A DNA stretch of 64,000 nt, taken from Caldithrix abyssi. Lineage in GTDB: Bacteria > Calditrichota > Calditrichia > Calditrichales > Calditrichaceae. Each line of letters opens with the position of its first letter. The first letter of the stretch is position 1. The notes under the pieces were generated by a model, which saw only the letters and a program-made list of their open reading frames with translations, made no database searches and had not been told where the DNA came from. Position numbers and translations under genes: made by a program. The stretch covers positions 1 to 64,000 of the forward strand of contig DRQG01000072.1 in assembly GCA_011369465.1 (NCBI GenBank), given 5' to 3'. Positions 11,813-15,586 of the stretch are shown in pieces.

Positions 11813-12031
11813 ATTGATGAATTAATGAATTAGTGAATTGGTGAATTGGCTATTAAGGGGAGTATTGGAGTAATGGAATGGTGGAGTGCTGGGGTTAGAA
11901 AAAAGTGAAATAATGAATTAATGAATTGTTGAATTATTGCCAAATTACACCACTCCACTACTCCAATACTCCATTACTTCAATATTCCATCACTCCATCA
12001 TACCATTAATTCATCAATTCAATACTTCATC
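11799..12031. repeat. Octamer-built palindromic repeat, copy A
   Basis: The left half is made of GAATT-type octamers (gaattgat, gaattaat, gaattagt, gaattggt) then GAGT-type octamers (gagtattg, gagtaatg, gaatggtg, gagtgctg). A short middle segment follows, and then the reverse complement of the same themes (actccact, actccaat, actccatt ... aattcatc). The whole unit can fold into one long imperfect hairpin. Its core 11886-11973 recurs, inverted and nearly identical, at 13502-13589. It fills the convergent spacer between nth and gatD, with no gene inside. Confidence 0.85.
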
Positions 12032-12044
12032 TTTCCTTCTTGTT

Positions 12045-13427
12045 TTACCTTTTTATCTTTCGTAAAAACGCCTCTACTTCGGGGATGCCGCCCTGATAGA
12101 TGAGATAGCCGTTGTACGGCTCGCGCTCTGTTATTTCGCCGGCAATGGGCGTGAGCATGATTTCTTTTACTCTGGCCAAATCATCTGTTTGGCCCAACGC
12201 CCAGGCCAGTTTTACGTAGGCCACTTCGGGCAGCATATTGGCTGCGGGAACCACGCCTAATTGCTGCAGTTCACGGCCGGTTTCGTACACATACATCTGC
12301 ACATAACCCCACAGGGTTTGCACGGTCATATAGACGGCAATGCCTTTTTCCTGCGCCCGCTTCAGCGCCGGGTACACCGGTTTGTTGACATGCCCCAGTC
12401 CGGTTCCGGCAATGACAATGCCGCGATAGCCGTTGTCGATGAGCGAGTCGATGATGTCCGGTTTCATGTTGGGGTAGTAATAGACGATGGAAACTTTTTC
12501 CTCAAAAGCGGTGTTGATGATAACATCGCGGTCGTCGCGCCGGCGTTTGTAATCGCTGCGCAACGGTGTAATCTTTTCCCGATCCACCAGCGCCAGCGGA
12601 ATATCGCCGATGGTGCGGAAAGTGGAGCGGTAACTGGAGTGCATTTTACGCACCCGCGTGCCCCGGTGCAGAATGCCATACTGATCCGAAGTGGGGCCGA
12701 ACATACACACCAGCGTTTCGGCAATGTCGCTCTCTGCGGTGGTTTTGACGGCGTGAATCAGATTCAAAGCCGCATCCGATGAGGGGCGGTCGGAAGAGCG
12801 CTGCGAACCGACCATCACGATGGGCACCGGCGAGTTTTGCACCATAAAAGACAGGATGGCCGCCGTATGGTGCATCACATCCGTACCGTGGCCGATCACG
12901 ATGCCCTGCACGCCCTTTTCAATCTCGCGCCCGATGGCCTCGGCCGTTGCGATCCATTGTTCCGGGCCCATGTTTTCGCTGAACACGCCGTACAGTTTTT
13001 CCGTTTCCAGGTTGCAGATGTCGGCCAGCTCCGGAACCGACCCATACAATTCTCCCGGCGAAAAAGCGGGGATCACCGCGCCGGTGCGGTAATCCAGCCG
13101 GCTGGCGATGGTGCCGCCCGTGCCCAGCAGTTTTACATTGGGCTTTTTGGGATCGTAGGGAAATTCCTTTTCGGGAATTTTGTATTCGGCTTTTTTGTAG
13201 CTGATTTCCCGGATTTGCCGGATGGTATGCACGGCCACGCCGATATTGTAGCCATTGTGCAGTTTAAGTACAATATGCCGTTCATCGGCGGTTTCCGAGC
13301 GGGGCAGAATAATTCCTTTAAAATTGCCGCGGCTGGTATCCATTTCCACATCGCTCCAAACGCGCACTTTGTTTTCTTTTAATACGGCCAGCGCCGGGTC
13401 ACGGTAACCCTTGTAGGCTTCTTCCAT
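12045..13427 (-). CDS. gatD: Glu-tRNA(Gln) amidotransferase subunit D, archaeal type, 460 aa
   Basis: GatD releases ammonia from asparagine/glutamine to feed GatE, which converts Glu-tRNA(Gln) to Gln-tRNA(Gln). After an N-terminal beta domain (residues 1-95) comes an L-asparaginase-type domain with all four catalytic residues: Thr106 (LGTGGTIAS), Thr182 and Asp183 (GHGTDVM) and Lys261 (RGTRVRKMHSS). The N-terminal domain and the RVRKMHSSYRSTF segment separate GatD from ordinary asparaginases. GGGAG precedes the ATG. The partner gatE lies immediately upstream, separated only by repeat copy B. GatDE is regarded as an archaeal hallmark, so its presence in a bacterial neighbourhood is unusual. 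Confidence 0.9.
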   Translation of the reverse strand: MEEAYKGYRDPALAVLKENKVRVWSDVEMDTSRGNFKGIILPRSETADERHIVLKLHNGYNIGVAVHTIRQIREISYKKAEYKIPEKEFPYDPKKPNVKLLGTGGTIASRLDYRTGAVIPAFSPGELYGSVPELADICNLETEKLYGVFSENMGPEQWIATAEAIGREIEKGVQGIVIGHGTDVMHHTAAILSFMVQNSPVPIVMVGSQRSSDRPSSDAALNLIHAVKTTAESDIAETLVCMFGPTSDQYGILHRGTRVRKMHSSYRSTFRTIGDIPLALVDREKITPLRSDYKRRRDDRDVIINTAFEEKVSIVYYYPNMKPDIIDSLIDNGYRGIVIAGTGLGHVNKPVYPALKRAQEKGIAVYMTVQTLWGYVQMYVYETGRELQQLGVVPAANMLPEVAYVKLAWALGQTDDLARVKEIMLTPIAGEITEREPYNGYLIYQGGIPEVEAFLRKIKR

Positions 13428-13452
13428 TTTTAGAAACTCCCGTTTTCTGTGG

Positions 13453-13662
13453 GGGAATGGATGGATTAGTGAATTGGTGAATTAATTATATGATGGAGTG
13501 ATGGAGTATTGGAGTAGTGGAGTGGTGTAATTTGGCAATAATTCAACAATTCATTAATTCATCATTTCACTATTTTCTAACCCCAGCACTCCACCACTCC
13601 ACTACTCCAACACTCCGAAAATGCAACATTCCATTAATCCATTCATTCACCAATTCATTCAT
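13453..13662. repeat. Octamer-built palindromic repeat, copy B (inverted relative to A)
   Basis: Same architecture as copy A but in opposite orientation: GGAGT octamers at 13496-13525, a core (13502-13589) that is the near-exact reverse complement of 11886-11973, and ATTCATTC/ATTCACC octamers at the right end. It lies between gatE and gatD and reaches the stop codon of gatE. Together with copy A it brackets gatD as an inverted repeat pair about 1.5 kb apart. Confidence 0.85.
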
Positions 13663-15586
13663 CCTTTTCTGTATATTTTTTAACCATTTCGTTCAATTTT
13701 CCTCCTTCCACCTGCCCGCGAAATTGCTCCATCATTTTGCCCATTATATAGCGATGGCGTTTATCGGAATCCGTAAAACGTTTTTGAGCTTCGCCCGCCA
13801 CAGCCTGCAAAGCGGATTGCAGGGTCGCTTCATCGGCTGCTGTCTTTTTGTGCTTGTTGATCAGCGCCGTCCAGTCCGCCTGAGGAGCGGTAAAAAATTC
13901 TTCCGCTAAAGCATCCACACAAGACCAAAAACGCGGATTGGCGGACAGTTCGGCAAAAAGCTGCCGCCACTCCTCCTGACCGATGCGTTTTACCGGCCAG
14001 CCCCTGCGTCGCCAGTATTTGGTTTTCTCAAACAGCAGGTTGGCCGCCCGTTTTGGCGAAAGCATATAGTCTTCACAGACCTTTTCGAAAAAAGGCGCCA
14101 GCGGAGAGGCGGCGATCGGTATTAATACATGTTCCGGCAGTCCCATTTTTTTATATTTTTCGATCCGTTCCCAAACGGGCTGAGGAACATTTTTTCGGAG
14201 CCGTTCGATGCGTTCCTCCGTTATTTCCAGCGGGGGTAAATCCGTATCGGGATACATACGATCCGGCCCGGGCAGGATGCGTTCAAAACCGTTGGTACCG
14301 TCGGCCAAAGCCTGACGGGTTTCGCTGGGCACGCCGACCAGCGCCTCTTGGGCGCGAATAATGATTTCCTGTACGGCCGTTTGTACATCGCGTTCGTTGC
14401 CCCAAACCAGAATAAGAGCATCCCGGGCGGTGGCCTTCAGCGTCTTGCGTATTTTGCTCCAGGTATATGTGTCGATGGTTTCCTCGGTGCTTTCGGAAGT
14501 GAGGATGTTGGGCAGACGGGTCAGGCAGGCAATCACCCGCACACGATCGGAAATTTCTTTGGAAAAGACTTTACCGGTTTGCGTGGGATGGCTGAGGATG
14601 CCCCGATAGCCTTTCAGATTAACGGCAAATACCTTTTCCTTACGCGCCACCGCCTGCCGGATGGGTTCCCATTCGCTATTGTACACCAACGGACTCACAT
14701 CGGCGGATTCGGCCCGAAAGGTCTGCTCGGTTATACCGCGTTTATGCAGCTCGCTGCGGATTTGCAAGAGGGCATACTGTCTCAGCGCCTCGTTATAAAT
14801 AAGCCGGGGGATAAGCGGAATGCGGTGCACGCCTTTGATTTCGATACGCGTACCGCCGGTGATACTCACGTTTACATCCTGCCGGGCCGCGCCGATACCG
14901 GTGCGCACTTTACCGGTGCTGCGTACCAGCCAGCGCAAAATATTGGCCACCTCGGCCACTTCCTGCGGTGTGCGCATTTCCGGCCGGGTAACCGTTTCAA
15001 TCAGCGGCATGCCCAGCCGGTCGGTACGGTAGGTGCGCAGATGCCCCACATCGGAAACCTCGCGACAGGCGTCCTCTTCCAGCCCTAATTGGATCAGTCC
15101 GATTTTTCTGTCTTTGTATGGAATCCAGCCGTCAATGCCTACGATGGTGGTGCGCTGAAAACCGGTCGGAATACTACCGTCCAAATACTGTTTACGGGCA
15201 ATGTGAATTTCGCTGACCAGTTTGTAGTTCATCAGCATGGCGATTTCCAGAGCAATATCCAATGCCTGCGGGTTGATCTCGAAAGGCGGCGTGTCGTCCA
15301 TTTCGTAGGTGCAAACCGACTCGTGGTTGATCTGATAAATGATTTCCTTTTTGGTTTTGAATTCCATCAGCGCGGTGCCGTCGTATTCGCCCAATTCGGA
15401 CAATGTGGGCCGCATGTGGCGTAGAATTTCGGCATCGTATTCTTCCGTATAGCGGGCGGCGGGACAGCGGCAAAACAGCTTCTTTTCGGTAAGCAGCTGC
15501 TGATGGATTTCCAGGCCGGCTTTGAGGCCGATTTGGGCGTAATCGTCTCCGGTCATTTCTTCGAAGGGTTTAAGCAGGACGGGCAT
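13655..15586 (-). CDS. gatE: Glu-tRNA(Gln) amidotransferase subunit E, archaeal type, 643 aa
   Basis: GatE phosphorylates and amidates Glu-tRNA(Gln) with ammonia from GatD. The start YAQIGLKAGLEIHQQL with LFCRCP (Cys39, Cys41) is the GatB/GatE kinase domain. The insertion around residues 275-400 (FAVNLKGYRGILSH...) is the AspRS-like domain that distinguishes GatE from GatB. The segment ADGTNGFERILPGPDRMYP is a GatE signature. The C-terminal 150 residues are the YqeY-like tRNA-binding tail. At 643 aa it matches archaeal GatE (about 620 aa) and is much longer than bacterial GatB (about 475). The gene is upstream of gatD on the same strand. No GatCAB genes are in the window. Confidence 0.92.
   Translation of the reverse strand: MPVLLKPFEEMTGDDYAQIGLKAGLEIHQQLLTEKKLFCRCPAARYTEEYDAEILRHMRPTLSELGEYDGTALMEFKTKKEIIYQINHESVCTYEMDDTPPFEINPQALDIALEIAMLMNYKLVSEIHIARKQYLDGSIPTGFQRTTIVGIDGWIPYKDRKIGLIQLGLEEDACREVSDVGHLRTYRTDRLGMPLIETVTRPEMRTPQEVAEVANILRWLVRSTGKVRTGIGAARQDVNVSITGGTRIEIKGVHRIPLIPRLIYNEALRQYALLQIRSELHKRGITEQTFRAESADVSPLVYNSEWEPIRQAVARKEKVFAVNLKGYRGILSHPTQTGKVFSKEISDRVRVIACLTRLPNILTSESTEETIDTYTWSKIRKTLKATARDALILVWGNERDVQTAVQEIIIRAQEALVGVPSETRQALADGTNGFERILPGPDRMYPDTDLPPLEITEERIERLRKNVPQPVWERIEKYKKMGLPEHVLIPIAASPLAPFFEKVCEDYMLSPKRAANLLFEKTKYWRRRGWPVKRIGQEEWRQLFAELSANPRFWSCVDALAEEFFTAPQADWTALINKHKKTAADEATLQSALQAVAGEAQKRFTDSDKRHRYIMGKMMEQFRGQVEGGKLNEMVKKYTEKDE

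Follow-up and report, generated by a model that had tools for sequence, protein, structure and literature searches.

Why should a bacterium carry an amidotransferase regarded as archaeal, and why should it keep the enzyme when it can also charge glutamine tRNA directly? The question is raised by a 64,000-nucleotide stretch of Caldithrix abyssi DNA (GenBank assembly GCA_011369465.1, contig DRQG01000072.1, positions 1 to 64,000; hereafter the window), in which a gene pair, gatE-gatD, encodes the two subunits of GatDE, a Glu-tRNA(Gln) amidotransferase. According to reviews of 2021 and 2022, GatDE occurs only in archaea (PMC8007984, PMC9499178), the established view against which a first, sequence-only reading of the window had set the find. 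Among the papers naming GatDE that were consulted, no report of a bacterial one appeared in titles, abstracts and selected passages. Contrary to the standard account, the window pair is a genuine GatDE and belongs to a clade widespread in bacteria, in cells that also have glutaminyl-tRNA synthetase (GlnRS). Its features are as follows.

13655..15586, minus strand: gatE, Glu-tRNA(Gln) amidotransferase subunit E, 643 amino acids (NCBIfam, PDB, Foldseek)
14204..15523, minus strand: GatB/GatE catalytic domain of GatE, residues 22-461, split by an insertion (PF02934, 172 bits)
14375..14662, minus strand: AspRS-like GAD insertion of GatE, residues 309-404 (PF02938, 17.7 bits, sub-threshold)
13676..14092, minus strand: GatB/YqeY tail domain of GatE, residues 499-637 (PF02637, 29.1 bits, cut-off 27)
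12045..13427, minus strand: gatD, Glu-tRNA(Gln) amidotransferase subunit D, 460 amino acids, with T106, T182, D183 and K261 (NCBIfam TIGR02153, PF18195)

Both open reading frames are complete at these coordinates, as the sequence-only reading had proposed. GatD scored 523 bits against the NCBIfam model gatD_arch (TIGR02153, cut-off 324) and contains the GatD_N domain (Pfam PF18195); the four catalytic residues that had been assigned to it are all present and are invariant across nine homologues. GatD also exceeds the cut-off of the asparaginase I subfamily model (394 bits over 260) via the shared core, and a stand-alone type I asparaginase was rejected on account of the GatD_N domain and the gatE partner. 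GatE scored 490 bits against gatE_arch (TIGR00134, cut-off 320) and 559 bits against NF003107 (cut-off 456), with just 130 bits against the gatB model (cut-off 315). Its residues H28, E170 and E197 align with the metal-site and catalytic positions H15, E157 and E184 of the Methanothermobacter enzyme and are invariant in 30 homologues. The ADGTNGFERILPG signature and the YqeY tail were found as described, the latter above its cut-off and helical in the predicted model. The AspRS-like insertion fared less evenly, falling below the gathering score in the window copy (17.7 against 23.4 bits) and being matched in 26 of 30 homologues.

The structural comparisons were consistent with this assignment. 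The nearest solved structures of both subunits are those of Pyrococcus (1zq1) and Methanothermobacter (2d6f) GatDE. The AlphaFold model of GatE (mean predicted local distance difference test score 84, predicted template modelling score 0.82) gave archaeal GatE 1zq1_C as its top Foldseek match (E 7e-46), followed by GatB and by weak matches to AspRS, which are expected from the GAD insertion. Judged by sequence and domains, the pair is a true GatDE and not an asparaginase I plus a GatB, and we regard it as very probably a real Glu-tRNA(Gln) amidotransferase.

The pair is not confined to one organism. A scan of relatives, taking one genome per species, matched at least 588 loci, of which 80, all titled bacterial, were retained; many of the remainder may be archaeal. 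GatDE is therefore carried by no fewer than 80 bacterial loci, which represent about a dozen phyla. Among the retained loci these are Calditrichota, Neomarinimicrobiota, Cloacimonadota, KSB1, Aminicenantes/Acidobacteria, Latescibacterota, Ignavibacteria, Kapabacteria, other Bacteroidota/Chlorobiota, Krumholzibacteriota, Fermentibacteria/Aegiribacteria, Zixibacteria and Planctomycetota, including Phycisphaerae. The records that carry the operon include four described as chromosomes (CP070707, CP070631, CP054675 and CP070718). GatD is strikingly conserved, with identities of mostly 75-88% across most of the sampled phyla, and GatE is less so (51-73%).

In a tree of GatE, 44 bacterial rows are set off together by a fully supported branch, at a total length of about 3.2 changes per column from the archaeal side; with only two archaeal sequences included, the tree does not fix the direction or age of the split. 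The window GatE belongs, with full support, to a group of 13 that also contains other Calditrichota, Neomarinimicrobiota, Cloacimonadota and one Acidobacteria record. The family of the window genome is not monophyletic in this tree, and lateral movement among bacteria therefore appears likely. Of the two origins that had been left open, an old or widely shared bacterial trait fits better than transfer into this lineage, in view of the large bacterial clade and the long branch to archaea; a recent archaeal transfer into that lineage was dropped for the same reasons. A divergent GatDE was observed in genome G045 (L049, 4278-7561), in the order gatD-gatE; its subunits share 32% and 43% identity with those of the window. 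In the tree its GatE sits beside the two archaeal rows at the end of a very long branch, and with its different gene order this GatDE may represent a case of its own.

The host genome (4.31 Mb in 161 contigs, 98.5% complete, 3.7% contamination; the window is contig C72) was searched for gatA, gatB, gatC, glnS and gltX. GatE is the sole PF02934 match genome-wide, and the genome therefore has no GatB; nor was a GatA found in it, the sole amidase-family protein scoring 229 bits against the GatA cut-off of 481. A GlnRS is encoded (757 bits, cut-off 426), together with two bacterial glutamyl-tRNA synthetases (GluRS), one aspartyl-tRNA synthetase (AspRS) and one lysyl-tRNA synthetase (LysRS). The sequence-only reading had asked how Gln-tRNA is made here; with GlnRS also encoded, the question becomes why both routes are kept. 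An intact GatC gene stands alone, without GatA or GatB, on contig C2 (L008, 1480-1782), and is perhaps a relic of a lost GatCAB. The two GluRS are unlike (L004, L003), one being nearest to E. coli GluRS and T. maritima GluRS2 and the other to T. thermophilus GluRS, and both types are mostly present in families f1, f3 and f6 of the class. Neither asparaginyl-tRNA synthetase (AsnRS) nor tRNA-Asn was recovered from the window assembly, which is probably an assembly gap in the case of AsnRS because all 14 of 14 same-family relatives have it.

Co-occurrence was examined in 50 GatE-bearing bacterial genomes, picked by similarity to the window GatE and thus not a random sample. GlnRS was present in 42 and AsnRS in 45; in 18, two of them the chromosomes CP070707 and CP054675, both were present and GatB was absent. 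Next to both direct synthetases, GatDE looks redundant. In a Phycisphaerales genome (G086), GlnRS (C66, 15140-16720) lies in an unusually long open frame of 929 amino acids, perhaps a fusion. Within the window's own class, 40 genomes divided into nine with GatE only, 23 with GatB only, one with both and seven with neither (Fisher p 3e-4, kinship uncorrected; 0.015 for the 24 genomes at least 90% complete). Such exclusion is expected if the two proteins do the same job, and it suggests that GatE and GatB do so in this class.

The glutamine tRNAs offer a possible reason for keeping both routes. They were compared in two Calditrichota genomes with GatDE (the window genome and CP070707) and in the Ignavibacteria genome G074, with E. 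coli as reference, from tRNA lists that are incomplete, holding up to 150 candidates per genome. The tRNA-Gln(UUG) of the window genome is canonical, being 83% identical to E. coli tRNA-Gln(CUG). Its tRNA-Gln(CUG), by contrast, is only 56% identical to its own tRNA-Gln(UUG) and 67% identical to its own tRNA-Glu(CUC), with which it is clustered, together with tRNA-Arg(ACG), on contig C53 (L189, 64-418). The closed chromosome CP070707 has a like pair, 70% identical to each other, of which tRNA-Gln(CUG) is 89% identical to that of the window genome; the two E. coli isoacceptors, for comparison, are 91% identical. The D-stem and variable loop of the Calditrichota tRNA-Gln(CUG) are of tRNA-Glu type (U11-A24 and U13-G22, with nucleotide 47 missing); this tRNA also has a short D-loop, without the extra nucleotides found in its own tRNA-Glu, and a U1-A72 pair. 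CAG makes up 59% of the glutamine codons in the window. Recognition of the first base pair and the D-loop is expected of a GatDE, and U1-A72 and the short D-loop are what the candidate tRNA presents there.

These features, taken with the precedent of Acidithiobacillus, whose GluRS1 charges tRNA-Gln(CUG) and not tRNA-Gln(UUG) and accepts only tRNAs in which the D stem is augmented and nucleotide 47 is missing (PMC3927822, PMC9976931), led us to propose that a GluRS and GatDE together serve tRNA-Gln(CUG). GlnRS would charge the canonical tRNA-Gln(UUG), and a GluRS would glutamylate the tRNA-Glu-like tRNA-Gln(CUG). GatD would then release ammonia from an amide donor, and GatE would activate the glutamate of Glu-tRNA(Gln) and amidate it to Gln-tRNA(Gln). 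That a functional bacterial GatDE works beside GlnRS, and that both persist through a split between the two glutamine isoacceptors, seems to us evenly balanced; the enzyme's identity and the tRNA pair are read from sequence, and activity and allocation are inferred. The division of labour itself, between GlnRS on one isoacceptor and GluRS with GatDE on the other, we put forward tentatively. The general form, in which some bacteria split their glutamine codons in this way by means of an old, multi-phylum bacterial GatDE, is offered with still more reserve.

Several observations weigh against this proposal. The tRNA-Gln(CUG) retains G73, U1-A72 and G2-C71 and might therefore be charged by GlnRS as well. 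The two tRNA-Gln of G074, 57% identical, both have augmented D-helix features, which alone are thus no proof of charging by GluRS. Both GluRS have an arginine at or next to the position of T. thermophilus Arg358; this residue is a discriminating signature in T. thermophilus only, and it was dropped as an uninformative test of tRNA-Gln discrimination. GatB is also present in 27 of the 50 GatE genomes (two of these copies are fragmentary), so that exclusivity fails outside the window's class. Finally, the GatDE-free comparison, in which roughly 2 of the 5 Mb of a GatB-bearing, single-contig relative (G005) were sampled, yielded 14 tRNA genes, none of them for Gln. A tRNA-Sec is predicted in the same relative (L304, 11058-11150).

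Some of the same facts could be accommodated by a genuine GatDE that acts as a safety net, repairing Glu-tRNA(Gln) made by a relaxed GluRS, without a dedicated isoacceptor, and patchily kept while GlnRS does most of the work. The patchy presence of GatDE would follow, a single GluRS is seen in several GatE genomes, and genomes of the class with GlnRS but neither GatB nor GatE do exist (G001, G009, G022 and G028). However, GatD identities of 75-88% across most sampled phyla suggest strong constraint, and the divergent tRNA-Gln pair would be left unexplained; we consider this account rather unlikely. A bacterial GatDE repurposed for another substrate or for nitrogen status, for example, and no longer mainly translational, is less probable again. 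It would suit hosts that mostly have both GlnRS and AsnRS, and in six loci (L127, L082, L103, L123, L070 and L118), which represent at least four named phyla, the gene next upstream of gatE is glnA, suggesting a glnA-gatE-gatD operon there. Such a neighbour equally suits a glutamine-consuming enzyme, however, and the catalytic core, GAD insertion and tail are all retained; the GatE/GatB exclusion within the class also argues against a new role.

A role in making Asn-tRNA(Asn) or asparagine could be read from a window assembly that has neither AsnRS nor GatCAB. It was dropped as very improbable, in view of AsnRS in all the same-family relatives and in 45 of the 50 GatE genomes, the gap being probably one of assembly; archaeal GatDE is moreover described in one account as never used for asparagine (PMC7541841). 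An assembly chimera, contamination or a recent, isolated archaeal transfer has next to no probability. We found no support for it, although the G+C contents of gatD (54.7%) and gatE (53.4%) rank with the highest among the open reading frames of the window (mean 47%, standard deviation 5%), which could reflect lateral arrival. The chimera check suggested by the sequence-only reading found the same operon in the several single-contig bacterial chromosomes named above, as well as in many independent bacterial assemblies, and the branch between the bacterial clade and archaeal GatE is long. Lateral exchange among bacteria apart, this possibility is already refuted. The split of isoacceptors between GlnRS and GluRS with GatDE remains the reading that we prefer.

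The surroundings of the pair are, as had been noted, plainly bacterial: the flanking open reading frames tested (ThyX, Schlafen/AlbA_2, an endonuclease III-like protein, a resistance-nodulation-division transporter and an outer membrane efflux protein) are all of ordinary bacterial types. The order gatE then gatD holds in nearly all loci long enough to judge. Apart from glnA in the six loci, no neighbours are conserved across the loci compared, and no informative tRNA genes were found near gatDE. In most relatives the two genes overlap or abut; in the window they are about 230 bp apart, separated by a palindromic repeat.

13428..13654, no strand assigned: gatE-gatD intergenic stretch, an 8-nucleotide-periodic palindromic repeat

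The RNA fold of this stretch is -84.2 kcal/mol (z -7.4). The 8-nucleotide units of the repeat (TGGAGTAG-like) occur at 13457-13662, 11866-11973 and about 1648, all intergenic, with paired copies flanking gatD; the motif matches the window 10 times, where 0.03 matches would be expected. The repeat is possibly a miniature mobile or repeat element.

Such proteins would probably be called GatD and GatE by public annotation pipelines already; what is new is the recognition of bacterial GatDE and of its co-occurrence with GlnRS, and not an unknown family. A 2014 survey splits bacteria by mutually exclusive possession of GlnRS or GluRS2 (PMC3927822), and Calditrichota with GlnRS, two GluRS and GatDE fall outside that division. 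Scenarios for the last universal ancestor that are built on an archaea-only GatDE (PMC9499178) need reworking, given the bacterial clade. If our proposal is true, direct and indirect synthesis of Gln-tRNA would operate in parallel within a single cell, each on a different isoacceptor, and the tRNA-Gln pair gives a direct experimental handle on why both are kept.

With archaeal GatDE, as known from Methanothermobacter (2D6F) and Pyrococcus (1ZQ1), the window pair shares both subunits, the domain order, the GatD catalytic residues, the GatE motifs, the GAD insertion and the YqeY tail. It differs in its bacterial host and in forming a separate bacterial clade on a long branch. The host also has GlnRS, a difference that belongs to the known hosts and not to the enzyme; to our knowledge, archaea lack GlnRS. 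The tRNA-Gln here has U1-A72, in contrast to A1-U72 in archaea (PMC9499178). The catalytic core is common to GatE and the GatB of bacterial GatCAB, and the two replace each other in the window's class. The window genome, however, has only GatC and neither GatA nor GatB, GatB models score far below their cut-off, and the glutaminase is asparaginase-like, not amidase-like. The two-GluRS system of Acidithiobacillus ferrooxidans likewise has two tRNA-Gln isoacceptors, one with an augmented D stem and no nucleotide 47, but GlnRS is absent there, whereas GlnRS and GatDE coexist here, where charging by GluRS is our proposal. In Bdellovibrio, Deinococcus and Thermus an amidotransferase, GatCAB, is similarly kept beside both direct synthetases, GlnRS and AsnRS, and is proposed to serve asparagine synthesis in those bacteria (PMC4206432), whereas the enzyme retained here is GatDE, known in archaea only for glutamine.

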